This document shows positions 46,364 to 62,931 of a stretch of 64,000 nucleotides of DNA, piece after piece. The stretch is from Shimia sp. (lineage in GTDB: Bacteria; Pseudomonadota; Alphaproteobacteria; Rhodobacterales; Rhodobacteraceae): contig NZ_JAKVCW010000007.1 of the NCBI RefSeq assembly GCF_022448905.1, forward strand, positions 1-64,000. Direction: 5' to 3'. Under the pieces are notes generated by a model, which ran no database searches, was not told where the DNA came from, and saw only the letters and a program-made list of their open reading frames with translations. Position 1 is the first letter of the stretch. Every line of letters starts with the position of its first letter. The position numbers and the translations under genes are program-made.

Positions 46364-46374
46364 CTGTCTCTCCT

Positions 46375-46644
46375 TTACTCGATGATGTCGCCGCGCAGTA
46401 CGAAGCGGCAGTAGGCAACCGTTGACACAAACCCGACCATAGCCACCAGCATGGAGGCCTCGTAGTAGATCGCCGTCCCTTTGTGCACGCCGTACAAGAT
46501 CAAAAGCGCAATCGCGTTGATCACTATGGTGTCCAGCGCCAAAATGCGATCCGCCGCGGTGGGGCCTTTTGCGATGCGAAACACGCACATCAACATGCCA
46601 AGTCCAAAGCAGGCAAAGCCAAAATAGAGAGCCATTGTGATCAT
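46375..46644 (-). CDS. mrpF: Na+/H+ antiporter subunit F
   Basis: 89 residues, three helices, with the R-I-x-K-G-P-T-A-A-D-R-I-L-A-L-D motif diagnostic of MrpF. The start overlaps the mrpE stop in ATGA (46641-46644). Confidence 0.9.
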   Translation of the reverse strand: MITMALYFGFACFGLGMLMCVFRIAKGPTAADRILALDTIVINAIALLILYGVHKGTAIYYEASMLVAMVGFVSTVAYCRFVLRGDIIE

Positions 46645-47132
46645 GAGAAAATCTCCTTCAACCGGCGCTCGTAGCGGTTTTTGATCTCATCGCGCACCGC
46701 CTCCGGATCTTCACAGTCCAGACAATGCACCAGCACGCTTGTGCCATCCGCGGACAACATCGCCGACACCGTACCCGGGGTCATGGTGATGGTGCCTGCC
46801 AGAATGGTGATCGCCTCCGGTGACGTGACATCCAACGGCACGGTGACCCATTTCGCGTGAATGTCCTTGTTGCGCTTGAACAGAATGATCGCGGCGACGT
46901 GGAAGTTCGCGACCACAATGTCCCATAGCACCACCAGCACATATTCCACCACTTTGAAGTAGTTTTGGATATGTGGGCGTCCCGGCCAATAGGGCGCAGT
47001 CAGAATAGGTACGATCACCCCAAAAATCGCCCCCAAGAGCACGTTACCGACCGTCACCTTGTTGACCAGCATCAGCCAAATCACCAACAAGGTCAGGCTC
47101 AAAATCGGGTGTGGTAGAAGTTTCCGTCTCAT
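46641..47132 (-). CDS. mrpE: Na+/H+ antiporter subunit E
   Basis: 163 residues. Two N-terminal helices are followed by a cytosolic region with the family segment TPGTVSAMLSADGTSVLVHCLD. MrpE is needed for complex assembly. It overlaps mrpD upstream and mrpF downstream by four bases each. Confidence 0.9.
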   Translation of the reverse strand: MRRKLLPHPILSLTLLVIWLMLVNKVTVGNVLLGAIFGVIVPILTAPYWPGRPHIQNYFKVVEYVLVVLWDIVVANFHVAAIILFKRNKDIHAKWVTVPLDVTSPEAITILAGTITMTPGTVSAMLSADGTSVLVHCLDCEDPEAVRDEIKNRYERRLKEIFS

Positions 47133-48661
47133 TTCAGATCCTCCCCATTCTGCCCAAGCACCGCGTCAACATAGCCTGACACATCAAACAGCTGAGCTGA
47201 GGTTTGCTCCAGATAGCCCATCACAGGCCCGGCAAACGCCGCCAACAGCACCAAGGTAGCCAAAGACAAACTCACACCGGTCAGCGCATTTACACCAATT
47301 GTCGCTGCGTCTTTCGGCTCTTCCGCCTCAGGATCGGCCAAAGCTGTGGCTTTCCAGAACACCACGCTGCCCGCTCGCGCAAAGCCCACAATGGTCACCA
47401 ACGAGCCGATCAGGATCGCCGCCCAGGCCGTCGCCATCCATGGCATGTCGCGCACCCCGTCTAGCACCAGCAGCTTGCCCAGGAACCCGCTCAGCGGCGG
47501 CATCCCCGTCACGCCAATGGCGCCCACAAAGAAGAACGCTGCAAACAAGCCGTTCTGATAGATTGGCGGCTGGGCTGACAAAGCATCGCTGCCGCGTCGT
47601 GTCACCACCAGATCCGCCAGCAGGAACAGCGCTGCCGCCGCAAAGGTCGAGTGCAGCAGGTAGTACAATCCCGCCGAAATCGCCTCAGGCGTAAACGCCG
47701 CTACCGCGAGCAACAATGTGCCCATGGAGCCTACCACTGCAAAGGACAGCATCGGCATCAACCGCCGTGCACCCAACACGCCAATCGCGCCCACCGCCAA
47801 GGTGATCACCGCCGCGGGCATGACCCAGCTTCCGATCAGCCCGTCCACCGCAGCCACATCCGGCCCAAACACCAATGTGTAGAAGCGGATGATCGCGTAG
47901 GCACCGACTTTGGTCATGATCGCAAACAACGCCGCCACAGGTGCTGGCGCATTGGCATAGGTCGCGGGCAGCCAAAACTGCACCGGGAACAGCGCTGCCT
48001 TGATGGCAAAGACCATCAACAGCAACACCGCCGACACGCGCAGGATAGCGGCCTCTTCCACCGGAAGTCCCCGCACTTTCACGGCCAGATCCGCGATGTT
48101 CAGCGTGCCGGTCGACGCATACAGCCCGCCAAGTGCAAACAAGAACAGCGTGGAGCCCGCAAGGTTCATCACCACATACTGCAGGCCTGCTTTCAGCCGC
48201 ACCTTGCCACCGCCGTGGATCATCAAACCATAGGAGGCGATCAGCAGCACTTCGAAGAACACAAACAAGTTAAACGCGTCACCGGTCAGGAAGGCACCAC
48301 AGACCCCCATCAACTGGAACTGGAACAGCGCGTGGAAGTGCCGTCCGCGGTTGTCCCACTCCGTGGCAATCGCATGCCACAGCACAATCAGCGCCAAAAT
48401 GGTTGTCAGAAGCACCATCATCGCCGACAGGCGGTCGAGTACCAACACAATGCCAAAGGGCGCAGGCCAGTCGCCAAGGTAGTAGACATGCGTCTCACCA
48501 TCTGCCGCCATCGCCAGCAAGCCGAGCGAAATCGCCGCCAACATCACCGTGCCCGCCACCGACGCATAGCGCGCAAGCTTAATGTCGTGCCGCATGACAT
48601 AAGCGATCACCGGCGCCAACAGCGCTGGCAGCACAACAGGAGCAATAATCCAGTGGTTCAT
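47129..48661 (-). CDS. mrpD: Na+/H+ antiporter subunit D
   Basis: A 510-residue NuoL/M/N-type proton-translocating membrane subunit with about 14 helices. The quinone-antiporter family core appears in F-P-V-Q-F-W-L-P-A-T-Y-A-N-A-P-A-P-V-A-A-L and a conserved lysine lies in I-M-T-K-V-G. It works with the A-B and C subunits to exchange cytosolic Na+ for periplasmic H+. It overlaps mrpC and mrpE by four bases each. Confidence 0.93.
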   Translation of the reverse strand: MNHWIIAPVVLPALLAPVIAYVMRHDIKLARYASVAGTVMLAAISLGLLAMAADGETHVYYLGDWPAPFGIVLVLDRLSAMMVLLTTILALIVLWHAIATEWDNRGRHFHALFQFQLMGVCGAFLTGDAFNLFVFFEVLLIASYGLMIHGGGKVRLKAGLQYVVMNLAGSTLFLFALGGLYASTGTLNIADLAVKVRGLPVEEAAILRVSAVLLLMVFAIKAALFPVQFWLPATYANAPAPVAALFAIMTKVGAYAIIRFYTLVFGPDVAAVDGLIGSWVMPAAVITLAVGAIGVLGARRLMPMLSFAVVGSMGTLLLAVAAFTPEAISAGLYYLLHSTFAAAALFLLADLVVTRRGSDALSAQPPIYQNGLFAAFFFVGAIGVTGMPPLSGFLGKLLVLDGVRDMPWMATAWAAILIGSLVTIVGFARAGSVVFWKATALADPEAEEPKDAATIGVNALTGVSLSLATLVLLAAFAGPVMGYLEQTSAQLFDVSGYVDAVLGQNGEDLK

Positions 48662-49020
48662 ACGCCCTGCCCCTCTGTGTCCTGCGCACCATCGTCGTCT
48701 GTCATGTTGATCTCATCACTGTCCGCCTCAAGATAGGCGCCCAGCGCGATCATCACCAAAACCGCGGTCATGCCAAAGCTGATCACAATCGCGGTCAACA
48801 CCAAGGCCTGCGGCAGCGGATCAGAATAGCTGACATCAGCATATTTGTTCAGGATCGGCGGTGCGTTCACCGCCAGACGCCCGGTGGCAAATAGGAACAC
48901 GTTCACCGCATAAGACAGCAACGCCATCCCGAGGATCACAGGAAAGGCCCGCAGGCGCAGGATCAGGTAGATCCCCCCCGCCGTCAGCACGCCAATGGCA
49001 CTGGCAACAATCATCTCCAT
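48658..49020 (-). CDS. mrpC: Na+/H+ antiporter subunit C
   Basis: A 120-residue NuoK-like subunit with three helices. The N-terminal half shows G-G-I-Y-L-I-L-R and L-L-S-Y-A-V-N-V, and P-L-P-Q-A-L-V-L-T-A-I-V-I is the family signature. The C-terminal extension is acidic (E-A-D-S-D-E-I-N-M-T-D-D-D). It starts one base after the mrpA stop and overlaps mrpD. Confidence 0.92.
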   Translation of the reverse strand: MEMIVASAIGVLTAGGIYLILRLRAFPVILGMALLSYAVNVFLFATGRLAVNAPPILNKYADVSYSDPLPQALVLTAIVISFGMTAVLVMIALGAYLEADSDEINMTDDDGAQDTEGQGV

Positions 49021-49021
49021 G

Positions 49022-51898
49022 TCATTGGCCCTCCTTCTGTTCTTGCTCGTCTACGCCATCCTCCGGCGCCTCGGACGGGTCGTGATCCATAGGGGTCACG
49101 TTGATGGTTTCCCCGGCAAACCGCGCAATCCGCGACAGGCTGTAGAGCATCAGCATCACCGCGCCCAACACCGCCAAGAACACGCCCAAATCAAACGCCA
49201 TCGCCGTGGCCCACTCAAACTCTTCGATAGGTGGGAAGTGCAGATAGCCATAGGCGCTGGTCAGGAACGGTTTGCCCGCCAGCCACGCACCCGCACCGGT
49301 CAACCCGGCGATGATGACGCCCCAGCCAATCATCGAGTGATACTCGATCCGCTGCCGCAACTGCGCCCAGGCAAAGCCCGAGGCCATGTACTGCATCAGC
49401 AAGGCAATGGAGATCACCAGACCCGCAACAAAGCCGCCACCAGGCTGGTTGTGCCCGCGCAAGAAGATGTAGAGCCCCACCATCACTGCCATCGGCAGCA
49501 TGGCCCGGGTCGCCACCACCATCATCAGCGGGTGACGGTCACGCGACCGATCTGGCGAGAACGCCCGATCCCGCAAACGCTTCGCCGCTGGGCCCCGCAA
49601 CAGCGCGTCCATCAACGCAAAGATCGCCAGGCCCGCAATGCCCAGCACGATGATCTCGCCGTAGGTATCATAGCCCCGGAAATCCACGAGGATCACGTTC
49701 ACCACATTGGTACCGCCGCCGCCTTTATAGGAATTGGCCAGGTGATAGGCCGAAATGCTGTCCACATCGCGTGTCAGGAAGGCCATCGCCAAAGCGGCCA
49801 CTGCGCCGCCGCCAGCAATCGCCACCACAGCATCACGCAGCCGCTTGCCGTTGCTGCTTTCCGCTGGCGTGTCTTTTGGCAGGAAGTAGAGCGCCAAAAG
49901 CAGCAGCATGATGGTCACGGTCTCAACCGAAATCTGCGTCAGCGCGAGGTCCGGTGCGGAGAGGTACACAAACCCACCCGAAATCACGAGGCCGATGATC
50001 GAGATAAACACCAAAGAGCGGAAGCGATTGCGGTGCTGGCTCACCACCAGCCACGTGGCCGCAATCAGCGACAACCAACCAACCCAAACCAAAGGCGGCA
50101 CCGGCAGGATCTCTCGTGTTGGCGCGCTGATACCACCGGTGAAATAGGCATGTGCGCCCACCCCGACTGCAGCCACAACCAACAACGCCAGATAGCGGCT
50201 CATCACGCCATTATGGGTACCTCGGGCAATGGCTTTGGCCAGCGCCACGCAACTGTCCATGATCGCATCAAAGATCGCTTTCGCCTCAGGCCGACGTGCC
50301 CGCAGCCAAATCGCATCCAGCTTGCCGTGCACAGCCAACAGACCACCGCCCACAACAAATGCAATCACCGACATCCACAGCGCCGGTGTCACACCGTGCC
50401 AAAGCTTCAAATGCGGATGCGTATCCAAGCCGGTCACAGCATTGGCCGCCACGGTCACCAGCGGCTCTGCCAAAAACGGCATTGCGCCAATGCCAACCAC
50501 CAGCACCGTCAACAGCGCAGGCGCGGCGTAGAGCCCAAAGGGCGGATCATGTGGCGTGGACGGATAGTCATCGCGCACCGGCCCGCCAAACACGTGGAAG
50601 ATAAACCGGAAAGAATAGGCCACAGAGAAACAGGCCCCCAAAGTTGCCAGAACCGGTACAATCCAAGGGTTGTTATACCACACCGTGTGCGCCGCTTCTT
50701 CAAGCATCATCTCTTTGGAAATAAACCCATTCAGTGGTATGGTCCCCGCCATCGACAGCGCTGTGATCGTCCCGATGATCGCGGTGATTGGCATCAGTTT
50801 GGCCAAGCCACCCAGCCGTTTGATGTCCCGCGTGTGCGCCTCGTGGTCGACAATCCCAGCGGTCATAAACAACGCAGCCTTAAAGGTCAGGTGGTTGATG
50901 ATGTGGAACACAGCCGCAATCACCGCGGCTTTGGTGCCAAAGCCCAACAACATGGTCAGCAGGCCCAAGTGGCTCACGGTCGAAAACGCCAACAAGCCTT
51001 TGAGATCATCTTTGAACAGCGCAATCACAGCACCCAGCACCATCGTGATCAGGCCGGTGGTCGCCACGATATAGAACCATGGGTCCGTGCCCGCCAAAAC
51101 AGGCCACATCCGGGCCATCAGGAACACACCAGCTTTCACCATAGTGGCAGAGTGCAGATAGGCCGACACCGGGGTTGGCGCCGCCATCGCATGTGGCAGC
51201 CAGAAGTGGAACGGGAACTGCGCGGACTTGGTGAATGCGCCGATCAGGATCAGGATCAGTGCCAGCATATACCATTCACTCGCCTTGATCACATCGCCCT
51301 GCGCCAGAATGTCGGTCAGGTTGTAGCTGCCCACGATGTTTCCAAGGATCAGCATACCGCCAATCATCGCCAAGCCACCTGCGCCGGTCACGGTCAACGC
51401 CATCCGTGCGCCCTGACGGCCTTCTGGCAGGTGCTTCCAATAACCAATCAACAAGAAGGACGAGAGGCTGGTCAGCTCCCAGAAAATCAACAAAAGCAGG
51501 ATGTTGTCGGACAAAACGATGCCAAGCATCGCGCCTTGGAAGAGCAGCAAGTAGGTATAAAACTGCCCCATCGGATCATCACCGGATAGGTAGAACCGGG
51601 CATAAAGAATGATCAACAGGCCAACCCCAAGGATCATCCCGGCAAAGAGCAGGCCCAAGCCGTCTAAAAAGAAGCTTGCGGACAAGCCAAGCTGTGGCAA
51701 CCACTGTATGGTTGTACTCACAACCTCGCCCCGCATCACCGCCGGAGCTTGCGTGCCCAACAGGATAAGCGCCAAAATGGTTGGCACGGCGGTAAATGAC
51801 GCACAGGCGTTACGCCCTGCACGGATCATAATGCCTGGAACCAACGCACCTAAAAAAGGAAGAATGGCAATCACTGCCAAAACACTGCCGTCGCTCAT
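49022..51898 (-). CDS. mrpA: Na+/H+ antiporter fused subunits A and B
   Basis: 958 residues: a NuoL-like MrpA region with about 20 helices (roughly residues 1-780) fused to an MrpB domain at the C-terminus (from about 800), ending in an acidic tail with E-Q-K-E-G. Proton-channel lysine and glutamate segments are visible (F-W-E-L-T-S-L-S-S-F-L-L-I-G, F-P-F-H-F-W-L-P-H-A-M). The fusion is usual for the A(B)CDEFG operons of alphaproteobacteria (PhaAB in rhizobia). The complex supports Na+ and alkali tolerance, as expected of a marine organism. The start has GGGAGGG. Confidence 0.94.
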   Translation of the reverse strand: MSDGSVLAVIAILPFLGALVPGIMIRAGRNACASFTAVPTILALILLGTQAPAVMRGEVVSTTIQWLPQLGLSASFFLDGLGLLFAGMILGVGLLIILYARFYLSGDDPMGQFYTYLLLFQGAMLGIVLSDNILLLLIFWELTSLSSFLLIGYWKHLPEGRQGARMALTVTGAGGLAMIGGMLILGNIVGSYNLTDILAQGDVIKASEWYMLALILILIGAFTKSAQFPFHFWLPHAMAAPTPVSAYLHSATMVKAGVFLMARMWPVLAGTDPWFYIVATTGLITMVLGAVIALFKDDLKGLLAFSTVSHLGLLTMLLGFGTKAAVIAAVFHIINHLTFKAALFMTAGIVDHEAHTRDIKRLGGLAKLMPITAIIGTITALSMAGTIPLNGFISKEMMLEEAAHTVWYNNPWIVPVLATLGACFSVAYSFRFIFHVFGGPVRDDYPSTPHDPPFGLYAAPALLTVLVVGIGAMPFLAEPLVTVAANAVTGLDTHPHLKLWHGVTPALWMSVIAFVVGGGLLAVHGKLDAIWLRARRPEAKAIFDAIMDSCVALAKAIARGTHNGVMSRYLALLVVAAVGVGAHAYFTGGISAPTREILPVPPLVWVGWLSLIAATWLVVSQHRNRFRSLVFISIIGLVISGGFVYLSAPDLALTQISVETVTIMLLLLALYFLPKDTPAESSNGKRLRDAVVAIAGGGAVAALAMAFLTRDVDSISAYHLANSYKGGGGTNVVNVILVDFRGYDTYGEIIVLGIAGLAIFALMDALLRGPAAKRLRDRAFSPDRSRDRHPLMMVVATRAMLPMAVMVGLYIFLRGHNQPGGGFVAGLVISIALLMQYMASGFAWAQLRQRIEYHSMIGWGVIIAGLTGAGAWLAGKPFLTSAYGYLHFPPIEEFEWATAMAFDLGVFLAVLGAVMLMLYSLSRIARFAGETINVTPMDHDPSEAPEDGVDEQEQKEGQ

Positions 51899-52028: not shown

Positions 52029-53966
52029 TCAGAATTGTTCCGCCAATTGCCGTAAATCCGGATCATCAGGGTTGTAAACCAGCGCCTGACGCATACGTTT
52101 CTGCGCTGCGCGACGCCCTTCAACCTGCGCCGTCATCCGGATCAAGCTGCTCCAGGCCTGCGTGTTTTGCGGATTGAGCTTAACCGCCTCCGACAACGCA
52201 GCAACGGCTGAGGGGATGTTGCCCGATACCATGGAATAGCCTGCAACCTGCAAATGCGCCTCGGCAAAATCCATCTGGTTTTGAACCACAGAGCCAAATT
52301 CCCGATAGGCTTGCCCCAAGGCGGCACGGAGGTCATCCGGCAAGCGATCCGGCCGCTGGCTCATAATGGCCCGCGCCGCCGCCAAGCGCACTGCTTTTAC
52401 GTCATCATTCAAGCCTTGCAACAAATAGGGCGCGGTCGCCACGACGGCCCGTGCACGCAACGCATTGAGCGCCCCAACCCGGATTTGCGGATCGTCGTTC
52501 TGCAAAAACGCCCCCAGATCTTCCAAATCCAGCGTTGTCGCCCCCGGCCCCAACAACCATAATGCCGTCGCCCGCACCAAATTTGGCTGTTCCTCATCTT
52601 GTGCCAGCCCCATCAAATCACCCGCAGCGGCTTGCGGATTGGCGCGCCCTTTGGCCAACACTTCGCCGTAGTGAGGCTCCTGCCAGCGGCCATTAGGGAA
52701 CCAATCGCGCACCTTACCTGCCGCCCACTCGTTGCTCTTATCGTCATGGCAGGTGATGCAGGCGTTGGGACTGTCCAGCGCATCGCTTAGGTCAGGTCGC
52801 GGCACGCGAAAGCTGTGATCCCGGCGCGGATCGGTGCCCATATAAACCTTATCCACCATATGACAGCTCACACACTGCGCCGCTTCGGTGCCTTCAGGGT
52901 GGTTGGTATGCGCCACATCCTCATAATCTGCCAACCGCAAACTTTCGAAGTCCGGGTTGCCCGCTGGCGAGTGGCACTGCGTACACACGGCATTATCCTC
53001 TGCCAAAACCTCTGCGGTATGCGGATCATGACAATTGGCGCAGGTCACGCCTTTCTGAGACATCTTGGACAGCAAAAAGGAGCCGTAGACGTAGACCTCA
53101 TCCAAAATCTGCCCGTCGGCATGATACAACCCTGGCCGCAACATGGAGAGGTTGTAGTTGTCCGCAAATGCCTCCCCCGGCAACGGATTGCCGTTGCCAA
53201 AACCTTCGCGCCGCGCATGGCAACCTGCGCACTGCTCCATCGCCTCGGCCGGCTCTGACATCGTCGCCGTGAAGCCCCAATCGTCCAAACTGACAGCAAA
53301 GCGCTCCGGCCGCTCACCGGCCACAATCTGGACATGCGCTGCCCCCGGCCCGTGACAGGCTTCACACCCCACCCCTATTTCAACTTGTGTGCTGGCGTAG
53401 CGACGGGTCCGAAAATCATAGTTTTTCTCAAATGCGGTCGCATGACACTCTGCGCAGCGCCCGTTCCAGTTTTTATAAACACCCGTCCAATGATACGCAT
53501 CTTGCGGTGGCAAGTCCTGATCCGGATAGAGATGGTACCAGCGCTTCTGTTCCACATCCCAGACCACATCAAAACTCTGCAACCGCCCTTTGCCGGTCGA
53601 CAGGATCGGATGCTCCAATGGGTGTACCCCGCCCACCGAATGCATCTCATATGTCGCTTCAACACCGTCTTTCTCGCGCACAGTCACAACATGGGTTTCA
53701 CCGTCCTTAGTAAAGGTGGCACGCATGCCATCATGCTCAAAACTCTCGCCTTCAAAAGCCCCAACAAAACTGTCCTCGCTCGGCATCCGCCAGGCTTCGC
53801 CGTGGTGCGAGGTTTTCCAATCATCGTAGGCATCTGTGTGACAATCGCGACAGGTCTCTGACCCCACATATGCTGGCACGCCTGCGCCGTGTGGTGTTTG
53901 CGTATTCCCGGCACTCCCCAGCGTCAAGCACGCCAGGACCACGCCGAAAAAAGTCTTTAATGTCAT
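52029..53966 (-). CDS. Octaheme c-type cytochrome with HEAT/TPR-like C-terminus
   Basis: 645 residues with a Sec signal peptide of about 20 residues. Eight CxxCH heme-attachment sites are readable: CRDCH, CAECH, CEACH, CAGCH, CANCH, CTQCH, CVSCH and CITCH. After the last, about 200 residues are helical: HEAT-like repeats (D-D-P-Q-I-R-V-G-A-L-N-A-L-R-A-R, D-D-V-K-A-V-R-L-A-A-A-R-A-I) and then TPR-like units (A-A-L-S-E-A-V-K-L-N-P-Q-N). The N-terminal half resembles the cytochrome c554-type periplasmic multiheme domains. It starts 11 bases after the batD stop, so it is probably the last gene of the moxR-bat operon. Substrate or electron partner is unknown. Confidence 0.88.
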   Translation of the reverse strand: MTLKTFFGVVLACLTLGSAGNTQTPHGAGVPAYVGSETCRDCHTDAYDDWKTSHHGEAWRMPSEDSFVGAFEGESFEHDGMRATFTKDGETHVVTVREKDGVEATYEMHSVGGVHPLEHPILSTGKGRLQSFDVVWDVEQKRWYHLYPDQDLPPQDAYHWTGVYKNWNGRCAECHATAFEKNYDFRTRRYASTQVEIGVGCEACHGPGAAHVQIVAGERPERFAVSLDDWGFTATMSEPAEAMEQCAGCHARREGFGNGNPLPGEAFADNYNLSMLRPGLYHADGQILDEVYVYGSFLLSKMSQKGVTCANCHDPHTAEVLAEDNAVCTQCHSPAGNPDFESLRLADYEDVAHTNHPEGTEAAQCVSCHMVDKVYMGTDPRRDHSFRVPRPDLSDALDSPNACITCHDDKSNEWAAGKVRDWFPNGRWQEPHYGEVLAKGRANPQAAAGDLMGLAQDEEQPNLVRATALWLLGPGATTLDLEDLGAFLQNDDPQIRVGALNALRARAVVATAPYLLQGLNDDVKAVRLAAARAIMSQRPDRLPDDLRAALGQAYREFGSVVQNQMDFAEAHLQVAGYSMVSGNIPSAVAALSEAVKLNPQNTQAWSSLIRMTAQVEGRRAAQKRMRQALVYNPDDPDLRQLAEQF

Positions 53967-53977
53967 AAACCTGTCTT

Positions 53978-55258
53978 TCAGTTCTGATGCGTGGAGACCG
54001 GATTGAGCGGCGGCAAATCCGGAGTCTTCGTGTCGCGACGATAGCGGGTTTCGCGGTGTTTTCTATGGCAGAGTGTTTTGAGGTGATCCCAAGCCTGCGC
54101 TTCCTCGGCGGTACCGGCAGTACCGAACCGCGCCGCGCCAATCTGCAAGAATGCCTCCTCAATGCCGAGTTCGGTTTCCTGCTCCGCAAGCGGCACCTTC
54201 TGCGCCCAACGCAAATAGGCCGGTTTGGCGGCACTCAAATCCCGTTTCTGCACCGCCTGTTTCAGCAAGCCGTAAGCATAGCCCGCACTTTGCAACCGCC
54301 GTTCCTGTGCTAAGCCCCAAGACCGGCGCAAAACCGGCACGCCCCAACGCGCAAAAGCCCATGCAACAAATAACAGCGCCACCAAAGCCACGCCCCACCG
54401 TACGATTTTCTCGACATCCAACGGCTCCGCACTGGGCGCCAAAACCGGCGCATCCGCCTGCACGTCAATGGCTTCCGCCGTGGCTTCTTCCACTTTGCCA
54501 GTCTTCAGATTGAACCACTGCAAACGCGCCTCAGGCAGCGTGCCTTCCACGCCACCTTCCACCACATAGACCGTCTTCTCCACCCTCGAGCCACTCACCA
54601 CGCCGCGGTTTTCCGTCTCCTCGGCCACAGGACTTTCTGGATAGGCACGCAGCCCTGCAAGCCCTTCCTCCGGCGTCACAGTTGGCAAAAACATCGGCGA
54701 CACGCCTTCGATCTTCACCTCAAGAACCCGCGTAAAACTTGCACCGGCATCCAACCCCGTGGTCTCCCCCTCAACAGCTTGCGTCAGGGTCAGCTTCTCG
54801 GCGGCCACAAACGGATCCATCGCTTCCGCGCCTTCCGGCACAACACCTGTCACTGTCTGCGCGGGGACCGGCAGCGTTGCCTCGAGCACTTCGCTACCGT
54901 CAAGCGCGCGATACCGTACCTTCACCTCTCCCGCCGGAATCTCAAACGTTCCCGGCACCACCGGTGTGATCTGATAGCGCCGCGAAATGCCGGACCAGGT
55001 CTCCCCGCCGATGCTCTTGCTGGTCGGCGAGCTCGCCTTGGACGGCAGCCGTACCATCAGGTTCGGGGTCTCAAAATCCGGCCACACTGGCGGGTCCGGC
55101 ATAAACGTTGGCACCAACACCGTCAGCCGCAGGGTTAACGGCTGTCCCGGCACGGTCTCGCTTTCCTCAAACGTCACCTCCAGCTTGGGCTGAACATCTT
55201 GCGCCCAAACCGCCACAACGCTCACCACCCAGAGCACAAAGGCAAAGCCCCATCTCAT
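53978..55258 (-). CDS. batD: BatD-like protein
   Basis: 426 residues from the ATG at 55258 (overlapping the previous stop in ATGA); the open frame extends to 55339 but without a start signal. A signal peptide precedes tandem beta-rich domains of BatD type (V-P-G-Q-P-L-T-L-R-L-T-V-L-V-P then P-S-K-A). A membrane helix lies at about residue 290-315 (V-A-L-V-A-L-L-F-V-A-W-A) with a basic cytosolic tail. BatD proteins accompany MoxR-VWA modules and are thought to be periplasmic partners; the molecular role is not settled. Confidence 0.85.
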   Translation of the reverse strand: MRWGFAFVLWVVSVVAVWAQDVQPKLEVTFEESETVPGQPLTLRLTVLVPTFMPDPPVWPDFETPNLMVRLPSKASSPTSKSIGGETWSGISRRYQITPVVPGTFEIPAGEVKVRYRALDGSEVLEATLPVPAQTVTGVVPEGAEAMDPFVAAEKLTLTQAVEGETTGLDAGASFTRVLEVKIEGVSPMFLPTVTPEEGLAGLRAYPESPVAEETENRGVVSGSRVEKTVYVVEGGVEGTLPEARLQWFNLKTGKVEEATAEAIDVQADAPVLAPSAEPLDVEKIVRWGVALVALLFVAWAFARWGVPVLRRSWGLAQERRLQSAGYAYGLLKQAVQKRDLSAAKPAYLRWAQKVPLAEQETELGIEEAFLQIGAARFGTAGTAEEAQAWDHLKTLCHRKHRETRYRRDTKTPDLPPLNPVSTHQN

Positions 55259-56241
55259 GGCCGCTCCCCCCGTGCCGCTTCCAACCGGAACCGTTGTTTC
55301 AGGAAATCCTCTGTGCGCGTGTCCACCGTGCGCATCCATTGTTCCGTCGACAAATGCGCCGGCGCATCTTCCTGCGGCACTTCGATCTGCGTGTCTTCCC
55401 CGCGCCCACTTTCGTTGTCAAACACCACATCGTCCGCGCCAATCCCGGTGTCCTCGCCCGTGTCAGACTGCTCCCGCGTGGTATCCACATAGTCCACGAT
55501 GGCTTTGGAGATCGGCAGGTTCTGCTGTGCATCCTTGTGCTCGGGATTGATCTCCAAAGCCCGCTCAAACGCCCGCACCCCATCGCGATACCCGCGCGAC
55601 TTCAGATGCGCCATGCCCTGCAAAAACGCTGCCTCCGCCGTGTCCAGCCGCGCCATCTCCTGCGCTGCCGTCTCATATTGCCCACTGCGATATAGCGCCA
55701 CGCCGCGCAAATACGGGTCTTCGAACGCCTCCGCAGCAACGGCGTAGTCCTTACGCTCAAACGCCCGCCATCCCTGCTGATCCGGCGTCAAAAACCAATC
55801 GCGCCAGCCATCTGCCTGCGCCTGCCCCGGCTGCAACATCCACAGCACCAAGGCCGCTTGTCCGGCCCAACGCACCGCCATCCCGCGCCGGAACCACAGC
55901 AGCATCAAAGCCAACGCCGGCCAGGCCAACCACGCGCCGCGATCCTCCCACGGCTGCGCCTCATCTTCCAATTGCGCCCGCCGATAGGCCGAGGCCAACG
56001 TGCGCTCCACCTCCGCGACATCCCGATTGTCTGGCGTCACGCGTGTTGCCGAGGCCCCGTCCGGCACCTGTGGCAGCTCAGTACCTTCAGGCAGCATGAA
56101 CAAAAAACTCATCGAAGCCACAGTTTCAGAGGCTACCGCCTCCTCCGCACCAGAATCAGCTTTGCCCCCAAGCCTCCGCCAGTTCCGCCGCCGCGCTGGC
56201 GGATAGCTCATCGACCATAAACACCACGCCCCCCGGCGCAC
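55255..56241 (-). CDS. TPR part of a split BatB-like gene (continuation frame)
   Basis: This frame is open from 56241, but sense-like sequence begins near 56169, where the VWA frame of the upstream part ends out of register. It reads A-D-S-G-A-E-E-A-V-A-S-E-T, then F-L-F-M-L-P-E-G-T-E-L-P, an acidic linker, one or two membrane helices (W-L-A-W-P-A-L-A-L-M-L-L-W), and a TPR-like soluble segment (F-E-R-A-L-E-I-N-P-E-H-K-D-A). Joined to the upstream part by deletion of one G it would make the usual VWA-TPR protein of Roseobacters. The first ATG inside is at about 56112. If restarted, it would be a separate TPR protein. Confidence 0.6.
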   Translation of the reverse strand: MRRGAWCLWSMSYPPARRRNWRRLGGKADSGAEEAVASETVASMSFLFMLPEGTELPQVPDGASATRVTPDNRDVAEVERTLASAYRRAQLEDEAQPWEDRGAWLAWPALALMLLWFRRGMAVRWAGQAALVLWMLQPGQAQADGWRDWFLTPDQQGWRAFERKDYAVAAEAFEDPYLRGVALYRSGQYETAAQEMARLDTAEAAFLQGMAHLKSRGYRDGVRAFERALEINPEHKDAQQNLPISKAIVDYVDTTREQSDTGEDTGIGADDVVFDNESGRGEDTQIEVPQEDAPAHLSTEQWMRTVDTRTEDFLKQRFRLEAARGERP

Positions 56242-56827
56242 CCTCCCGCGCCAAAAGCGCCTGCGCCGTGGCTAACCCGGCCTGAATGTCCTGCCCTTCA
56301 ATCGGCATGACAGCCGTGGTCAGCCCCTCCAAATAAGGCTGCATCACCCCGGGGTCTTCACTCATCGGCACCACCACATGCGCAGTCCCTGCAAAGGCCA
56401 CCAATGCCGTACGCGCTCCGCTGCGCAAGGCAAGCAAATCCATCGTCTTCTGCCGCGCCCGCGCCAGCCGCTGTGGCGCCACATCGGTTTGCTCCATCGA
56501 CGGCGTGACCTGCATCACCACCACCAGTGGCGCGGTCTGGGCCGCAAAAGGTGTCGGTGCGCGGGTCCAGCTCGGCCCAGCCACAGCGAGAACCAAAAGC
56601 AGCAAAACAACCGAGATCACATCAATCGGCTGAACCCGCCCCGCCGCATTCCCGGGCACAGTCAAAGCCTCGGCCAAATGCGGTGCAAGCCAGCAGTCGT
56701 TGCCGCCTGTCGCGCCGCGTCGTTGCCGCAACCGGCACCAGGTCACCAATACTGGCAATCCCAACACAAGCAACCAAGGCCGCAGGAAATGAAACGCCTC
56801 AAGGAACAGCGACAAGTCAAAGGTCAT
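56156..56827 (-). CDS. batB: VWA part of a split BatB-like gene
   Basis: 223 residues from the ATG at 56827 (overlapping the batA stop in ATGA) to the TGA at 56156. A membrane helix (about residues 10-30) and a second one (about 72-90) precede a von Willebrand A domain whose metal site is degenerate: the first motif reads M-Q-V-T-P-S-M-E instead of D-x-S-x-S. The frame ends just after E-L-S-A-S-A-A-A-E-L-A-E-A-W-G-Q-S. The natural continuation lies in another frame after a run of five G (plus-strand C 56165-56169). A sequence error, a pseudogene, or programmed frameshifting are all open. Confidence 0.65.
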   Translation of the reverse strand: MTFDLSLFLEAFHFLRPWLLVLGLPVLVTWCRLRQRRGATGGNDCWLAPHLAEALTVPGNAAGRVQPIDVISVVLLLLVLAVAGPSWTRAPTPFAAQTAPLVVVMQVTPSMEQTDVAPQRLARARQKTMDLLALRSGARTALVAFAGTAHVVVPMSEDPGVMQPYLEGLTTAVMPIEGQDIQAGLATAQALLAREGAPGGVVFMVDELSASAAAELAEAWGQS

Positions 56828-57807
56828 GCCCGCGCCCTCCCGTGATCCCGCACCCAAAGCGACATCAACAAGATCAACCCAATCGCCATAGCCGCCATCA
56901 AAGGCCAATGCGCCAAGTTTTGCTGAGGCCGCCAACTCAATGTCTCGATCTCCTGCGGGTTCAGCGCGTCAATTTCATCGTAAATGCTGTCCAACGCGTC
57001 CGCATCGGCGGCAAAATAAGCCTCCCCCCCCGTGCGTTGTGCCAAATTGTTGAGCAACGCCATATCCAGCCGATCCTCGCCGCTAGCCTCCGGGTCACCA
57101 ACCCCAATCGCAAACATGCGCACGCCCTTGTCCCGCGCAATCTCGGCGGCATTCACCGGGCTCATCCGGCTCGCCGTGTCATTGCCATCGGACAAAAGGA
57201 TCAACAGCCGTTCCTCAATCTCGCTGGCCTCAAACGTGTTGATCGCCAAGCCAATCGAGTCGCCCAGCGCCGTATGTGGCCCAGCCATGCCCACCTCGGT
57301 CTGCGCCAACAACGCCCGCACCGTGTCCAGATCCTCGGTCAACGGCGCCTGCACATAGGCCCGCGTGCCAAACACAATCAGCGCCACCCGGTCGCCAGTC
57401 CGATCCGCCAGAAACGCCTCGACCACCTCTTGCACCGCCGCCAGCCGCTGCACCGGTTTGCCGTCCTCACCTGGAAAATCTCGCGTGTCCATGCTGCCGG
57501 AAATATCAATCGCCAGGATAACATCCCGCGTCGCCTTGGTGATCTCCTGCGGCGGCCCCAACCGCACCGGCCCTGCCAAGGCCAGCACCAGCAGCGCCCA
57601 CATCAGGCCGCCCCCAATCAGCGCCCGCCGCTTGTGCGCCACAATCGCAGCTCCGTCTTGAACGGTCAGCCCGGCAGCCTCCGCGATCTGATCAAAAAAC
57701 GGCACCCGCAGCGCGTCTTGCCGTTGCCGGTATGGAGGCACAATCCGCCGCCAAATCAACGGCAAAGGCAACAGCAACAGCACCCAAGGATGGCTCAGCT
57801 CAAACAT
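56824..57807 (-). CDS. batA: BatA-like VWA domain protein
   Basis: 327 residues from the ATG at 57807. Two N-terminal helices (about residues 8-20 and 60-78) lead to a periplasmic- or cytosol-facing von Willebrand A domain with an intact metal site, D-I-S-G-S-M-D, and the second motif T-A-L-G-D-S. A third helix closes the C-terminus. BatA/VWA proteins are the usual partners of MoxR ATPases and bind or deliver metal-dependent targets. It overlaps DUF4381 by eight bases and batB by four. Confidence 0.88.
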   Translation of the reverse strand: MFELSHPWVLLLLPLPLIWRRIVPPYRQRQDALRVPFFDQIAEAAGLTVQDGAAIVAHKRRALIGGGLMWALLVLALAGPVRLGPPQEITKATRDVILAIDISGSMDTRDFPGEDGKPVQRLAAVQEVVEAFLADRTGDRVALIVFGTRAYVQAPLTEDLDTVRALLAQTEVGMAGPHTALGDSIGLAINTFEASEIEERLLILLSDGNDTASRMSPVNAAEIARDKGVRMFAIGVGDPEASGEDRLDMALLNNLAQRTGGEAYFAADADALDSIYDEIDALNPQEIETLSWRPQQNLAHWPLMAAMAIGLILLMSLWVRDHGRARA

Positions 57808-58285
57808 CCGCCACCTCCGGTGGCTTATGCGATGTAACCCACGCCCGTGCCGCCGCCAGCAACCCCGGATCTGCCTCCACCGGAGCTCTCTGATAGGCCG
57901 CGCGCGCCAAGGCCGTCTCCTCAAACTCTCCCGCGCCGGTCTCGCTCAAAAACGTGACCCAAGCCGGCCCACTCAACCCGGCCACACGTCGCCGCCCATA
58001 GGCAGCCATCGCCGCACGTTTCAAAATTCCCGAAACAGCCGCCGGATCGTCCCCTGCCTGCGCCAGAGCCTTCAACGCCGCCCGCCGATACGCATTGGCC
58101 CGATAGTGCTGCCACGTCCGCCAGCCGCGCCACGCAGAAACAGCCAAGACAATCCCCGCCAACACAAGCCACCCGGCTGTCTGTGGCACCATCGACACCG
58201 GTGCCGGGTCCGGCACTTCCGCAAGCTGATTGATCAGCTCGACAAGGCTGTCGTTGTCCACGGCTGCGGTGGCCTCGTCGCTCAT
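57800..58285 (-). CDS. DUF4381 family protein
   Basis: 161 residues from the ATG at 58285. One membrane helix (about residues 37-55) is preceded by an acidic N-terminal segment and followed by a helical cytosolic domain (A-N-A-Y-R-R-A-A-L-K-A-L). DUF4381 occurs almost only next to MoxR-DUF58-VWA genes; its role is unknown. Overlaps with the DUF58 gene (ATGA) and batA. Confidence 0.83.
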   Translation of the reverse strand: MSDEATAAVDNDSLVELINQLAEVPDPAPVSMVPQTAGWLVLAGIVLAVSAWRGWRTWQHYRANAYRRAALKALAQAGDDPAAVSGILKRAAMAAYGRRRVAGLSGPAWVTFLSETGAGEFEETALARAAYQRAPVEADPGLLAAARAWVTSHKPPEVADV

Positions 58286-59265
58286 CGCGCGCGCCCTCCC
58301 AGCAACCGCACCACCTGCGCCAGCGTGTCTTCCGCGGAGGTCAACGGCAGCACCGACAGGCGCATCCGCTTCTGCCACTCTGCCACCTGGTCCCGCCGCG
58401 ATCCAGTCACCTGCGCCAAGCCCGCACGGACCTCCGCCGCCTGAAAATCCAACAAGGTTTGTTTCTGCCCATCAGACGCCGTCACCTCGCCGGTCTCTGG
58501 CACCATGTCCGCGCTGGGGTCACCCACTAGTCCAAGCACCACATCATTGTGCAGCGCAATCGCGCCGAGCCGTCGCTCAGTCTCTTCATCACAGGCGTCA
58601 AAATCACTGATCACGATCACCAGATGATCCCGCGTCGCCAACCGCGCCACCGCCGCTAGCACATCGTTAAACGGCATCGGGATCGCTTTTGGCGCATCAG
58701 CCTTCAAGCGATGATTGGCCGTCTCCAAACAGGTCAAAAATCGCGTCACCGCCGCCCGTCCCCGTCCGGGGCGCAGCTCATCTATATCGGCATCCCCAAA
58801 CACCACACCACCCACACGGTCGCCTTGCTTGGCCACCCGATGTGCCACAATCGCTGCGCATTCCGCCGCCGTGACCGCTTTGGTGTTGTGTACCGTGCCG
58901 TAAAACATCGACATACGCTGATCGACCACAATCAATGTCGGACGATCCCGCTCCTCGGTGTAAACGCGCACATAGGGCGACCCCGCCCGCGCCGTGACCT
59001 TCCAGTCAATCGCGCGCACATCATCTCCCGGCAAGTAGTCGCGCAGCTCTTCAAAGTCCAAACCACGCCCGCGAATGCGTGACCTATGTCGCCCCTGCAA
59101 CGCTGACCGCGCGGGCTGTTTAGGCAAAAAGGAGATTGCCCGCGCCGCCGCCTCCAAAGACCGCAGCCCCTGCAAACTCACATGGATGCGCGAGTCATCC
59201 GCTGCTTCAGACGGCGACCGATCTGGGGCCACACCGGCACGAGACAAAGCTGCACGGTTTCGCAT
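58282..59265 (-). CDS. DUF58 family protein
   Basis: 327 residues; the ATG follows GGAGGACGCG. The family signature is G-R-G-L-D-F-E-E-L-R-D-Y-L-P-G-D-D-V-R-A-I-D-W-K (read in two halves), followed by a VWA-like domain. No transmembrane helix, so it is cytosolic, unlike many DUF58 proteins with two helices. It is 12 bases downstream of moxR. Confidence 0.88.
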   Translation of the reverse strand: MRNRAALSRAGVAPDRSPSEAADDSRIHVSLQGLRSLEAAARAISFLPKQPARSALQGRHRSRIRGRGLDFEELRDYLPGDDVRAIDWKVTARAGSPYVRVYTEERDRPTLIVVDQRMSMFYGTVHNTKAVTAAECAAIVAHRVAKQGDRVGGVVFGDADIDELRPGRGRAAVTRFLTCLETANHRLKADAPKAIPMPFNDVLAAVARLATRDHLVIVISDFDACDEETERRLGAIALHNDVVLGLVGDPSADMVPETGEVTASDGQKQTLLDFQAAEVRAGLAQVTGSRRDQVAEWQKRMRLSVLPLTSAEDTLAQVVRLLGGRAR

Positions 59266-59277
59266 CGCGTCCTCCGC

Positions 59278-60273
59278 TTACGGCACCGCCACCAAGGTCA
59301 ACAGCTCGGCCACCACATCATCCGCAGACACCCCACTGCCCTGCGCCTCATAGCTCAGTGCCAATCGATGGCGCAGCACATCCGGCGCAATCGCCTGAAT
59401 GTCTTCCGGGTCCACATAGTCGCGCCCCTTCATCCAGGCATGCGCCCGCGAGCATCGATCCAGCGCCAGAGACGCCCTTGGGCTACCGCCCAGCTCAATC
59501 CACTTGGCGAGGTTTTCACCAAACGCCGCAGGCGTGCGGGTGGCTTGCACAATCGTGGCCATATAGACCTCCATCGCTTCGGCACAGTGCAGACCTGCGA
59601 TCTCGCGCCGCGCTTGGAACACCACGTCTTGCGAAATCGGTTCACGCGGCGCTTTTGCCGCCTTCTCCGCTGCCTGCTCCTGCAATTGCGCCTGATCTTC
59701 ACCGCGCACCAGCCGGATCACTTCAATCTCATCTTCCAGTGGCGGATACAGGATGTTCACATGCATCAGGAACCGGTCCATCTGTGCCTCTGGCAGCGGA
59801 TAGGTCCCCTCCTGCTCCACCGGGTTCTGTGTCGCCATCACCATGAACAGCGGCTCCATCTGATGCGTGGTCCCGGCCACCGTCACCTGCCGCTCTTCCA
59901 TCGCTTCCAGCAGAGCTGCCTGCACCTTGGCTGGCGCGCGGTTGATCTCATCCGCCAGTACAACGTTGGCAAAAATTGGCCCCGGTTGAAACCGAAACTG
60001 GTCTCCGTCGGCCGCGCCTTGCACATACATCTCCGTGCCGGTCACATCCGCAGGCAGCAAATCCGGCGTAAACTGGATACGCGAATAGTCACACTCCAAG
60101 TTCTTCGCCAAGGCCTTCACCGCACGGGTCTTGGCCAAGCCCGGCAACCCTTCCAGCAACAGGTTGCCATTGGCCAAAAGCCCAATCAGCAAGCGGTCAA
60201 TCACATCGCGCTGGCCAATGATGCTCTCACCCATGCGCTCACGAAGCGCATTGATCTCGTCCAGTGCTGCCAT
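59278..60273 (-). CDS. moxR: MoxR family AAA+ ATPase
   Basis: 331 residues from the ATG at 60273, which shares a base with the HAD gene stop (TGATG). Walker A is G-L-P-G-L-A-K-T (42-49) and Walker B is V-V-L-A-D-E-I-N-R-A-P. Sensor 1 is A-T-Q-N-P. The C-terminal lid domain follows. MoxR ATPases act as chaperones for maturation of enzyme complexes, often with VWA proteins that insert metals. This one drives a module with a sulfatase/HAD pair upstream. Confidence 0.94.
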   Translation of the reverse strand: MAALDEINALRERMGESIIGQRDVIDRLLIGLLANGNLLLEGLPGLAKTRAVKALAKNLECDYSRIQFTPDLLPADVTGTEMYVQGAADGDQFRFQPGPIFANVVLADEINRAPAKVQAALLEAMEERQVTVAGTTHQMEPLFMVMATQNPVEQEGTYPLPEAQMDRFLMHVNILYPPLEDEIEVIRLVRGEDQAQLQEQAAEKAAKAPREPISQDVVFQARREIAGLHCAEAMEVYMATIVQATRTPAAFGENLAKWIELGGSPRASLALDRCSRAHAWMKGRDYVDPEDIQAIAPDVLRHRLALSYEAQGSGVSADDVVAELLTLVAVP

Positions 60274-61265
60274 CACTCTGCCTCGCCGGTGAAAATCCGC
60301 GTCCACTCGTTTTTCATATCCACCAGCACCCAGCCGCGATCTTCGGCCTCATCCAATCCACGATTGAGCACCCCAATGTGCCCTTCTCGGTCATAAGCCC
60401 ATTCACGCTCACCATCGGTGTGGTGGATATACACCCCCAGCCGCGCGCCCTCACCTGCAGTGGTGTATTCCAGCATCTCAAAGTCGCCGTCTGAGTTGCC
60501 CACAGCCATGATCGGCCGTTTGCCGATGTGGTGATTGATTGCCACAGGCTTTCCCGCCTTGTCATCGTTGAAGAACAATGTGTCCTTCTTGATAATCGTC
60601 GGCACCCCGTCGACCACTTCATAGGTAGACGTTAACGACGACCCAATCGTCTGCTCTGGCGGGATGCCATAAACGTCCTCGGCAAAGACCCGCATAAAAT
60701 CGATCCCGCCACCAGAAACGATATAGGTCTTGAACTCCTCGTCCCGCAGATACCGCAGCAGTTCCACCATTGGCTGATAGGTCATCTCATCATAGCCCAA
60801 CCCCGTGGTCGGATGCTTTGTCTCTGAGACCCACGCGGCCACATCGGCAGAAAAATCATCCAGGCTCTGGTTGGCATGGGACAGCGCCAAAATCTCGATC
60901 AGCCCCTCTTTGCCCCCAGCCAAAACACCATCCATGTCGCCCGCCGCGGCAGCCTTCAGCACATCGCTGCTCAGTTTCGACGGATTTTCCGCCCCAATCT
61001 TGGCCACGCGATCGAGCGCAAAAAACAGTTGGAAGTACATCGGCTGCTCCGCCCAAAGCGTGCCGTCATTGTCAAAAACCGCAATTCGGTCTGCCGGCGT
61101 CACATAGTCGTCGCCGCCAACCTCAGACACCGCTTCGACAAACGCAATGATCCGGTCTTTGGACGCCCCCTGCCAGGACGGCAGTGGATCGGCCAAACCA
61201 ACACCGGCAACGCCCACCAGAGCCAAAGACAAACAAGTTGTTTTAAACGAAGTCAACAAAATCAT
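60273..61265 (-). CDS. Exported HAD-family phosphatase-like protein
   Basis: 330 residues from the ATG at 61265, with a Sec signal (L-S-L-A-L-V-G-V-A-G-V-G-L-A-D). The HAD motif I is D-N-D-G-T-L-W (F-D-N-D-G-T-L-W), motif II appears at T-Y-I-V-S-G-G-G, and motif III/IV at G-N-S-D-G-D-F-E-M. A periplasmic phosphatase or phosphonoacetaldehyde-like hydrolase is the best reading; the substrate is unknown. Its stop overlaps moxR (TGATG), so a non-Bat gene leads the MoxR operon. Confidence 0.85.
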   Translation of the reverse strand: MILLTSFKTTCLSLALVGVAGVGLADPLPSWQGASKDRIIAFVEAVSEVGGDDYVTPADRIAVFDNDGTLWAEQPMYFQLFFALDRVAKIGAENPSKLSSDVLKAAAAGDMDGVLAGGKEGLIEILALSHANQSLDDFSADVAAWVSETKHPTTGLGYDEMTYQPMVELLRYLRDEEFKTYIVSGGGIDFMRVFAEDVYGIPPEQTIGSSLTSTYEVVDGVPTIIKKDTLFFNDDKAGKPVAINHHIGKRPIMAVGNSDGDFEMLEYTTAGEGARLGVYIHHTDGEREWAYDREGHIGVLNRGLDEAEDRGWVLVDMKNEWTRIFTGEAE

Positions 61266-61356: not shown

Positions 61357-62931
61357 TTACTTGGAGCCAATCTGGCTGAAGATCTTGTCCTTGGCATCGC
61401 CAATGGTGAAGCTGCCCGGCTTCTGACGTGGTGGGAATTCCTCAAATGTTGCAAGGAACTCGCTCACGTAACCAGCCGCTGGCAACAGCAGGTAGACGCG
61501 GTCCAGATACCAATCCCAATAGGTGTTGGAAGTGATGTTGGCGCGTTCATACGGGTCGCGACGCAGGTTGAACAACAGCGGAATACGCAGCTCTGTCCAT
61601 GGCTCCGCCCAGGCCCGCAGGGTCTGCGGATAGCGGTGCTCGAGGAAGATCACCTTCCAGTCGTTGTAGCGCAGCGCGGTCAGATCACCGTCATCAGAGA
61701 AGTAGAAGATCTCCCGACGCGGGGTCTCTTCGGTCTCACCCGTCAGGTATGGCAGGAAGTTGTAGCCATCCAGATGCACCTTGTACTCACGGCCAATCGC
61801 CTGAACACCACCGGCTTTGAGCTCTTCCTTGATGTCCGGTTTTCCGGCAACCGCCAGATAGGTTGGCAGCCAATCCATGTGGTGCATGATCTCATTGGAG
61901 ATCGACCCGGCTTCAATGTTGCCCGGCCAACGCACCATAGATGGCACGCGCCAGCCGCCTTCCCAGTTGGTGTTTTTCTCACCACGGAACGGGGTCATCG
62001 CCGCATCCGGCCAGCTGTTCATATGCGGCCCGTTGTCGGTGGAGTAATGCACAATGGTGTTGTCGGCGATGCCAAGCTCGTCCAGCACATCCAGAAGCTG
62101 CCCAACATGCATGTCATGTTCGATCATGCCTGCCTGGTACTCATCCATATGTTTGCCAGCGATCTCATCCGCCTTCAGACGCATCTCGTCTTTCACGTGC
62201 GTGCGGAAGTGCATCCGCGTACCGCTCCACCAGACAAAAAACGGCTGTCCCTGCTCGTTGGAACGCTTGATGAAGTCAATCGCCGCCGCAACGGTCTCTT
62301 CATCCACGGTCTCCATCCGCTTTTTGGTCAGCGGGCCGGTGTCTTCGATTGTGCCATCTGCGGACGACTTGATCACACCACGTGGACCAAACCGCTCGCG
62401 GAACTCAGGATCCTGAGGATAATCCTCATTCTCCGGCTCTTCTTCTGCGTTCAGGTGGTAGAGGTTGCCAAAGAACTCATCAAAGCCATGGTTGGTTGGC
62501 AGCATCTCGTCCCGGTCACCCAGGTGGTTTTTACCAAACTGCCCGGTGACATAGCCTTCCGCTTTCAGCAGCCCCGCAATGGTCGGATCTTCCACCTGCA
62601 TGCCCTCAGGCGCGCCCGGCATGCCCACTTTGGACAGACCTGTACGGAACACCGATTGGCCGGTGATGAAAGATGACCGGCCTGCGGTACAGGATTGCTC
62701 ACCATAGTAGTCGGTGAAAATCATGCCCTCTTTGGCCACGCGGTCGATGTTTGGCGTTTGATAGCCCATCAGTCCCATGGTGTAGGCCGAGATATTGGAC
62801 TGGCCAATATCATCCCCCCAGATCACAAGAATGTTGGGCTTTTCTTGCGCCGCTAGTGCGGTCGCAACCGTCGTGACCACAGCGGTGACCGCTGATAGAC
62901 GTACGACAGCCTTCATTGGGTTCAGACCCAT
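61357..62931 (-). CDS. Secreted arylsulfatase family protein
   Basis: 524 residues with a Sec signal peptide (about residues 6-29) and GGGAGT before the start. The sulfatase catalytic motif is C-T-A-G-R (Cys81 to Arg85), where the cysteine would be oxidised to formylglycine; the usual proline is an alanine. The metal ligands of the N-terminal fold are seen in W-G-D-D (39-41). Substrate could be sulfated algal polysaccharide or steroid-like sulfates. A formylglycine-generating enzyme is not in the window. Two palindromes lie upstream (63056-63084). Confidence 0.9.
   Translation of the reverse strand: MGLNPMKAVVRLSAVTAVVTTVATALAAQEKPNILVIWGDDIGQSNISAYTMGLMGYQTPNIDRVAKEGMIFTDYYGEQSCTAGRSSFITGQSVFRTGLSKVGMPGAPEGMQVEDPTIAGLLKAEGYVTGQFGKNHLGDRDEMLPTNHGFDEFFGNLYHLNAEEEPENEDYPQDPEFRERFGPRGVIKSSADGTIEDTGPLTKKRMETVDEETVAAAIDFIKRSNEQGQPFFVWWSGTRMHFRTHVKDEMRLKADEIAGKHMDEYQAGMIEHDMHVGQLLDVLDELGIADNTIVHYSTDNGPHMNSWPDAAMTPFRGEKNTNWEGGWRVPSMVRWPGNIEAGSISNEIMHHMDWLPTYLAVAGKPDIKEELKAGGVQAIGREYKVHLDGYNFLPYLTGETEETPRREIFYFSDDGDLTALRYNDWKVIFLEHRYPQTLRAWAEPWTELRIPLLFNLRRDPYERANITSNTYWDWYLDRVYLLLPAAGYVSEFLATFEEFPPRQKPGSFTIGDAKDKIFSQIGSK

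Follow-up and report, generated by a model that had tools for sequence, protein, structure and literature searches.

The window analysed here is a 64,000-nucleotide stretch of Shimia sp. DNA (assembly GCF_022448905.1, contig NZ_JAKVCW010000007.1, positions 1 to 64,000) whose minus strand carries an arylsulfatase (SULF), a HAD phosphatase (HAD), a MoxR-Bat group (MoxR, DUF58, DUF4381, BatA, BatB and BatD) and an octaheme c-type cytochrome (CYT); what the cytochrome and the MoxR-Bat group may do for the sulfatase is our subject. SULF (61357..62931) matches PF00884 (E 9e-51), has a Sec-like N-terminus as judged by eye and, in a 19-row alignment, keeps its formylglycine motif C81-T-A-G-R85 (62677..62691) in 19/19 rows; with this domain and a motif of the form C/S-x-A/P-x-R it is a type I sulfatase. 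HAD (60273..61265), also exported, matches PF12710, and its motifs FDNDG and GNSDGD, which we take to be the DxD nucleophile and C-terminal acidic motifs of HAD phosphatases, are invariant in 16/16 rows. There follow a MoxR AAA+ ATPase (59278..60273; PF07726, E 7e-63), a DUF58 protein (58282..59265; PF01882, E 4e-39), a DUF4381 protein (57800..58285; PF14316, E 4e-29), the VWA protein BatA (56824..57807; PF00092, E 6e-21), BatB (55255..56827; VWA then TPR), BatD (53978..55258) and CYT (52029..53966). The window BatD falls below the Pfam cut-off for PF13584 (E 0.0019, 19.3 bits vs 24.1), a family matched by 15 of the 17 aligned BatD members, that of the window included (E up to 1; best 1.6e-9). 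MoxR, DUF58, a VWA pair and BatD, the marks of a MoxR-Bat operon, are thus all present, with batB frameshifted.

The genes are tightly packed. HAD and MoxR meet at TGATG, with 1 bp common to both genes; MoxR and DUF58 are 12 bp apart; overlaps of 4 bp (DUF58/DUF4381), 8 bp (DUF4381/BatA), 4 bp (BatA/BatB) and 4 bp (BatB/BatD) follow, and 11 bp separate BatD from CYT. The operon layout given for 52029-61265 in a preliminary description of this DNA, made from the sequence alone, therefore stands as to genes, coordinates and junctions (overlaps of 1-8 bp or gaps of at most 12 bp), except that batB is not one open frame. Its VWA half (56156-56827) ends at a stop at 56156 and the remainder runs in another frame to 55255; in alignment with the locus L034 the window has one surplus base at a G-run near 56170. 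In the eight nearest loci (L034-L041) batB is a single open reading frame (ORF) of about 1.7-1.9 kb, and the frameshift may be a true lesion or a sequencing error. The 91-bp spacer between SULF and HAD contains a 12-pair terminator-like stem (61339-61312; 9 G-C pairs) followed by ATATTTTT, with a T-rich tail. This stem is the longest among 12 such sites in the region, where shuffling expects 11.3. Since a terminator-like hairpin sits in the spacer, SULF may be transcribed separately from HAD onward.

CYT was found in 22 of 40 relatives, and the gene set was then followed through a family sample of 295 evenly drawn genomes with profiles built from this cluster and cut-offs of our choosing (CYT E 1e-50, SULF 1e-180, HAD 1e-50, BatD 1e-20). 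CYT was present in 44 genomes, SULF in 45, HAD in 39 and BatD in 30, or 29 when G048, with a weak match of 105 bits, is left out. CYT and SULF occur together in 42 genomes (Fisher 7e-45), CYT accompanies HAD in 38 of 39 HAD genomes (p 2e-40), and the 29 strong-BatD genomes include 29 with CYT (p 2e-29) and 28 with SULF. The association exceeds chance. The co-occurrence check that the preliminary description had called for thus finds the genes together far from rarely, and bears out its suggestion that the set, upstream sulfatase and exported HAD included, is one functional unit. Gene order varies among loci (single operon, divergent, or downstream), and in G133 SULF, HAD and BatD lie on a different contig from CYT, yet all are present.

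The phosphatase is part of the association even where HAD is not. Six CYT genomes lack HAD, and all six carry a phosphatase of family PF01663, which is found in 15 of the 295 genomes, every one a CYT genome (p 4e-14); the complementarity of the two phosphatases has p 7e-4. The PF01663 gene stands between SULF and MoxR in L042-L044 (L042:16192-17946) and before MoxR in L049, and it appears to be a non-homologous replacement of HAD in some relatives. Because HAD-less CYT genomes all carry it, the core of the association is CYT, sulfatase and phosphatase, with this MoxR-Bat type in 29 of the 44 CYT genomes. In the congener locus L036 (13270-14979) the PF01663-like gene is present as two abutting ORFs, and in G258 (C258:2525-4350; genome 75% complete) the CYT copy appears as two matches with a TAG inside.

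Outside the family, the whole set is present in Halomonas litopenaei (L122) and Pseudomonas sp. UFMG81 (L154). Desulfoluna butyratoxydans (L173) has MoxR-Bat, CYT and SULF and no HAD match. In a FastTree phylogeny of 147 cytochromes these three are split by a fully supported branch from the remaining 42 cytochromes of MoxR loci. Plasmids of Sinorhizobium, Rhizobium and Roseibium have sulfatase-HAD-CYT with no MoxR-Bat nearby. Among the named CYT loci (the best 80 of 429 matches), the 19 high-scoring ones include 7 with a sulfatase-like ORF near CYT, 4 of them within 3 kb of it; for the 61 lower-scoring loci the figures are 20 and 17.

As loci centred on CYT are biased towards CYT, the search was reversed and SULF was used as the query. 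SULF occurs in 30 of the 299 genomes of a phylum sample, in 57 copies (E 1e-150). Leaving aside the copies in the window and in G004, all are covered by 50 loci, 15 of which were extended, and 16 plasmid loci chosen for taxon spread among 60 listed of 205 records brought the total to 66. Throughout the analysis, loci that were duplicates or short stretches (L094, L053, L178-L185) were left out before counting. Presence of CYT and of the two known maturases, FGE (FGE/SUMF1, PF03781) and anSME (anSME/AtsB, TIGR03942), was scored anywhere in the fetched stretch. CYT was found in 12 of the 66 loci, FGE in 20 and anSME in 6, with one overlap (L274). In the 22 loci where SULF is accompanied by MoxR, CYT alone is present in 8, FGE alone in 6, anSME alone in 5, CYT with FGE in 1 and none of the three in 2, of which one (L198) is cut by a contig end. 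Exactly one of the three is therefore present in 19 of the 22 loci, where shuffling gives 9.9 on average (p 1.35e-4). In other words, CYT alternates with known maturases in operons of the same sulfatase, which is what marks it as a candidate maturation factor.

Individual operons illustrate the exchange. The order SULF-CYT-MoxR is found in L189-L191, L210 and the Vibrio locus L267, and SULF-anSME-MoxR in L213, L215 and the Rahnella locus L280. In full, the Vibrio THAF190c order is SULF-CYT-MoxR..BatD and that of Rahnella SULF-anSME-MoxR-DUF58-DUF4381-VWA-VWA-BatD-like; in Paracoccus yeei pYEE2 the genes run SULF-MoxR-DUF58-DUF4381-VWA-VWA-BatD, with an FGE gene some 5 kb upstream (what follows MoxR is annotated as hypothetical and was named DUF58 by position), and Methylobacterium nodulans has FGE-SULF-HAD. 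On a quick MoxR tree of 66 labelled loci, with some long branches, 9 label changes are needed where the minimum is 4, and the anSME-linked L216 and L218 are nested among CYT-linked loci. The same MoxR-Bat type stays with SULF where FGE or anSME is present instead of CYT; it is the sulfatase that MoxR-Bat accompanies throughout.

If CYT modified only cysteine, no Ser-type sulfatase would be expected beside it. Motifs of neighbouring sulfatases were counted, not de-duplicated and mostly from CYT-centred loci, with one unresolved motif in CYT context left out. All 72 resolved sulfatases lying up to 6 kb from CYT are Cys-type (CTAGR 53, CSPTR 7, CTPGR 6, and others), as are 29 of 29 near FGE; 3 of 7 near anSME are Ser-type, and Ser-type motifs occur near anSME only. 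If, further, FGE acted before export and CYT after Sec export, Tat signals would be expected with FGE. Strict Tat signals were found in 9 of 20 FGE-linked and 1 of 12 CYT-linked sulfatases of the SULF-searched loci (p 0.05, or 0.012 if L229, the single CYT-linked case, is judged non-Tat), and over all loci in 10 of 31 FGE-linked vs 2 of 101 CYT-linked sulfatases. A further 18 CYT-linked sulfatases have an arginine pair outside the strict pattern, the Vibrio-type KRRLAI among them, and anSME-linked sulfatases have no strict Tat signal either, so that the test separates FGE from CYT only.

The window genome (99.99% complete) has three CTAGR sulfatases (that of the window, L186 and L187), whose N-termini all look Sec-like by eye, and no match to PF03781 or TIGR03942 at E 0.001. 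For other genomes a strong FGE was defined as a PF03781 match of at least 190 bits, a line we chose ourselves; FGEs beside SULF scored 256-290 bits, and matches below the line may belong to other members of PF03781. Of the 42 family genomes with CYT and SULF, 13 (that of the window included) had no PF03781 match and 13 had only weaker matches; 9 of 12 further congeners likewise had none. In all three family genomes that have SULF and lack CYT (G075, G287, G122), a strong FGE stands beside SULF or one gene off. In the phylum sample, where 24 of the 30 SULF genomes were searched for PF03781, strong matches were found in 0 of 10 CYT-linked and 6 of 14 other genomes (p 0.024), a contrast that is partly circular because 5 of the 6 were already known to be FGE-linked. 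Around the FGE genes of seven CYT genomes the nearby sulfatase looks cytosolic in two, too small a number to build on.

What kind of protein is CYT? The preliminary description was right in seeing an eight-heme cytochrome with a HEAT/TPR tail: CYT has eight CXXCH motifs, whose C and H are invariant in 41/41 rows, and the matches are to PF14522, PF13435 and HEAT_2. Of its 17 cysteines, 16 are in CXXCH; the last, at position 13, falls in the signal region. Besides the histidines of the motifs, seven more are conserved (40 or 41 of 41 rows) and are candidate distal ligands; being one fewer than the hemes, they would allow for one catalytic heme. An AlphaFold2 model from 41 sequences (pLDDT 87.4, pTM 0.88) has as its best solved Foldseek match OcwA (PDB 6I5B; E 4e-10, 17% identity, TM-score 0.39-0.51), also the best sequence match of the heme part; among the matches listed, most others are TPR, HEAT or alphaRep proteins. 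OcwA has nine hemes and is not known to have a HEAT/TPR tail or a sulfatase operon; with eight motifs and this TM-score, CYT does not qualify as an OcwA. In sequence CYT weakly resembles MccA and cytochrome c554. NrfA/ONR-type nitrite reductases have a CXXCK catalytic heme, and the eight motifs identified in CYT all read CXXCH. Searches of Pfam, NCBIfam and PDB with CYT gave cytochrome-family or repeat matches and no named function.

CYT does not belong to either known maturase family, having no match to PF03781 or to radical SAM or SPASM families at E 0.001. FGE uses O2 and copper, and anSME is a radical SAM enzyme. FGE resembles CYT in context, for where CYT is missing it is found in sulfatase-HAD(-MoxR-Bat) operons of the same kind, beside Cys-type sulfatases only, but is unrelated to it in sequence; CYT is exported and heme-based, whereas the FGE inspected (G075) has no signal peptide and is presumably cytoplasmic. 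anSME likewise occurs in the same sulfatase-MoxR-Bat operons (L280, L213, L215, L216, L218) and can stand between SULF and MoxR, but unlike CYT is also found beside Ser-type sulfatases. As for the operon, it shares MoxR, DUF58, BatA, BatB and BatD with the Bat (aerotolerance) or MoxR-VWA operons and differs from them in its link to a sulfatase and in having DUF4381 together with either CYT or a sulfatase maturase.

We hold at about even chances the general reading that the operon is a cassette for sulfatase maturation and use, in which CYT replaces the usual maturase, FGE or anSME, and MoxR-Bat is a chaperone for the sulfatase. The main argument for CYT as a stand-in is that its alternatives are precisely the two known maturases; linkage, co-occurrence, the Cys-only motif and the genomes without FGE or anSME matches agree with it. 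The sharper proposal, to which we give slightly less than even chances, is that CYT is a third, heme-based sulfatase maturase, which works in the periplasm with the help of a MoxR-Bat chaperone, forms formylglycine on Cys-type sulfatases exported by Sec, and is exchanged for FGE or anSME in an operon conserved across Pseudomonadota, the CYT form occurring in Desulfoluna as well. CYT, which combines a signal peptide, a heme core and a HEAT/TPR solenoid, would bind the Cys-type sulfatase once Sec has exported it and before it folds, and would act as, or supply, the oxidant that converts the active-site Cys of CTAGR to formylglycine, the electrons passing along its hemes; FGE and anSME fill this role in related operons. 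MoxR with DUF58, DUF4381 and BatA, BatB and BatD would serve the sulfatase as a dedicated chaperone, keeping it competent or loading its metal. Once mature, the sulfatase would act on a substrate along with the exported phosphatase, be it HAD or the PF01663 enzyme.

Several observations weigh against this. None of CYT, FGE and anSME was found in 29 of the 66 SULF-searched loci, and over all 66 the exclusion of CYT and FGE is a trend (1 shared locus vs 3.6 expected, p 0.06). The Rhizobium sullae locus L274 holds both, and G397 and G573, two of the ten CYT-linked genomes of the phylum sample, each have a CYT-linked and an anSME-linked operon. The slot is loose, with FGE in some cases 4-5 kb from SULF (L273, L276), and in the window itself CYT is at the far end, after BatD, rather than between SULF and MoxR. 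Many CYT relatives have no sulfatase nearby, and the nearest solved fold is that of OcwA, an outer cell wall cytochrome. The loci are moreover phylogenetically non-independent, which weakens all the p values. Finally, of 21 control genomes of the family that lack SULF, 9 give no match to PF03781 and 5 give a strong one; since controls lack PF03781 about as often, CYT genomes as such are no poorer in FGE, and the notable part is that Cys-type sulfatases are kept without it.

Other explanations compete with this reading. CYT could accept electrons from the product that sulfatase and phosphatase release, or act on it as an oxidoreductase, with maturation in trans and hence no local maturase. Its eight hemes and OcwA-like fold speak for this, as do the similarity to MccA and cytochrome c554, the tight link to either phosphatase, and the strong FGE or above-cut-off anSME found elsewhere in 16 of the 42 genomes with CYT and SULF. 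We nevertheless consider it unlikely, though a serious contender: it accounts neither for the genomes with no maturase match nor for the fact that, in these operons, what is found instead of CYT is one or other of the two known maturases, and the several motif types of the CYT-linked sulfatases fit a general factor better than one substrate. Less probable again is that SULF is matured by a CYT-independent route like that of E. coli, or is active with an unmodified Cys, the link to CYT reflecting other shared physiology. According to the parts of PMC6189696 consulted, the E. coli modification machinery for Cys-type sulfatases is elusive, and unmodified choline sulfatase is still capable of turnover; absence of FGE and anSME is therefore no proof that CYT is the maturase, and the frequent absence of FGE from SULF-less controls points the same way. 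The three-way alternation and the three CYT-less SULF genomes, which all carry FGE near SULF, speak against this account. An E. coli-like route combined with an unrelated electron-transfer role for CYT is the strongest rival. The interpretation in the preliminary description, which had not considered sulfatase maturation, was that MoxR-Bat matures CYT or that CYT is the electron partner of an enzyme so matured; operon layout suggested it, and MoxR-VWA modules do offer precedents with cofactor enzymes. It now seems quite improbable, and we downgraded it because MoxR-Bat remains with SULF where CYT is absent, in 11 loci (6 with FGE, 5 with anSME); in addition, 15 of the 44 CYT genomes lack this BatD.

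Some neighbouring genes deserve mention. In Wenyingzhuangia (L130:8865-9809) a predicted lipoprotein that is FGE-like (225 bits) and lacks the Cys pair of the G075 FGE is encoded directly upstream of CYT; it could possibly be a sulfatase-binding scaffold beside a redox cytochrome. Aryl-sulfate sulfotransferase genes lie near the sulfatase on plasmids of Methylosinus (L030:5831-7192) and Salipiger (L270:19646-20785), and because of them a phenolic sulfate substrate is hinted at. A histidine kinase and response regulators adjoin the gene set in Rhizobium (L033:8205-10735) and Alloyangia (L028:1548-4016), and CRP-type regulators occur in 13 other loci. Downstream of CYT, the genes at 45995-51898 of the window resemble an antiporter cluster, presumably of the Mrp-type Na+/H+ kind, with homologues in nine congener loci; conserved neighbours outside the gene set encode an AI-2E transporter, BrkB, PLD and a CRP regulator. 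From gene names and map position we take Sinorhizobium meliloti SMa1683 to be SULF and SMa1682 to be HAD. In the consulted parts of two studies these genes appear in tables only (-5.0 in a tolC mutant, PMC2912261; a PhaR table, PMC12542648), and as the entries are uninformative a link to a studied phenotype was dropped.

The sections consulted of a review (PMC3920027) count two formylglycine-making systems, FGE and anSME, and PMC6189696, again in part, cites Benjdia 2007 on a third system. In the open-licence literature searched, as far as the accessible portions go, we found no description of sulfatase, MoxR-Bat and a multiheme cytochrome in this arrangement. If the proposal is correct, a maturase that uses heme and works in the periplasm would add a new kind of chemistry to post-translational modification, and would account for bacteria that keep Cys-type sulfatases without FGE or anSME. 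To our knowledge the clients of MoxR-Bat operons are mostly unknown, and these operons would gain a concrete one. Even without a catalytic role for CYT, its alternation with FGE and anSME indicates the process that the operon serves.

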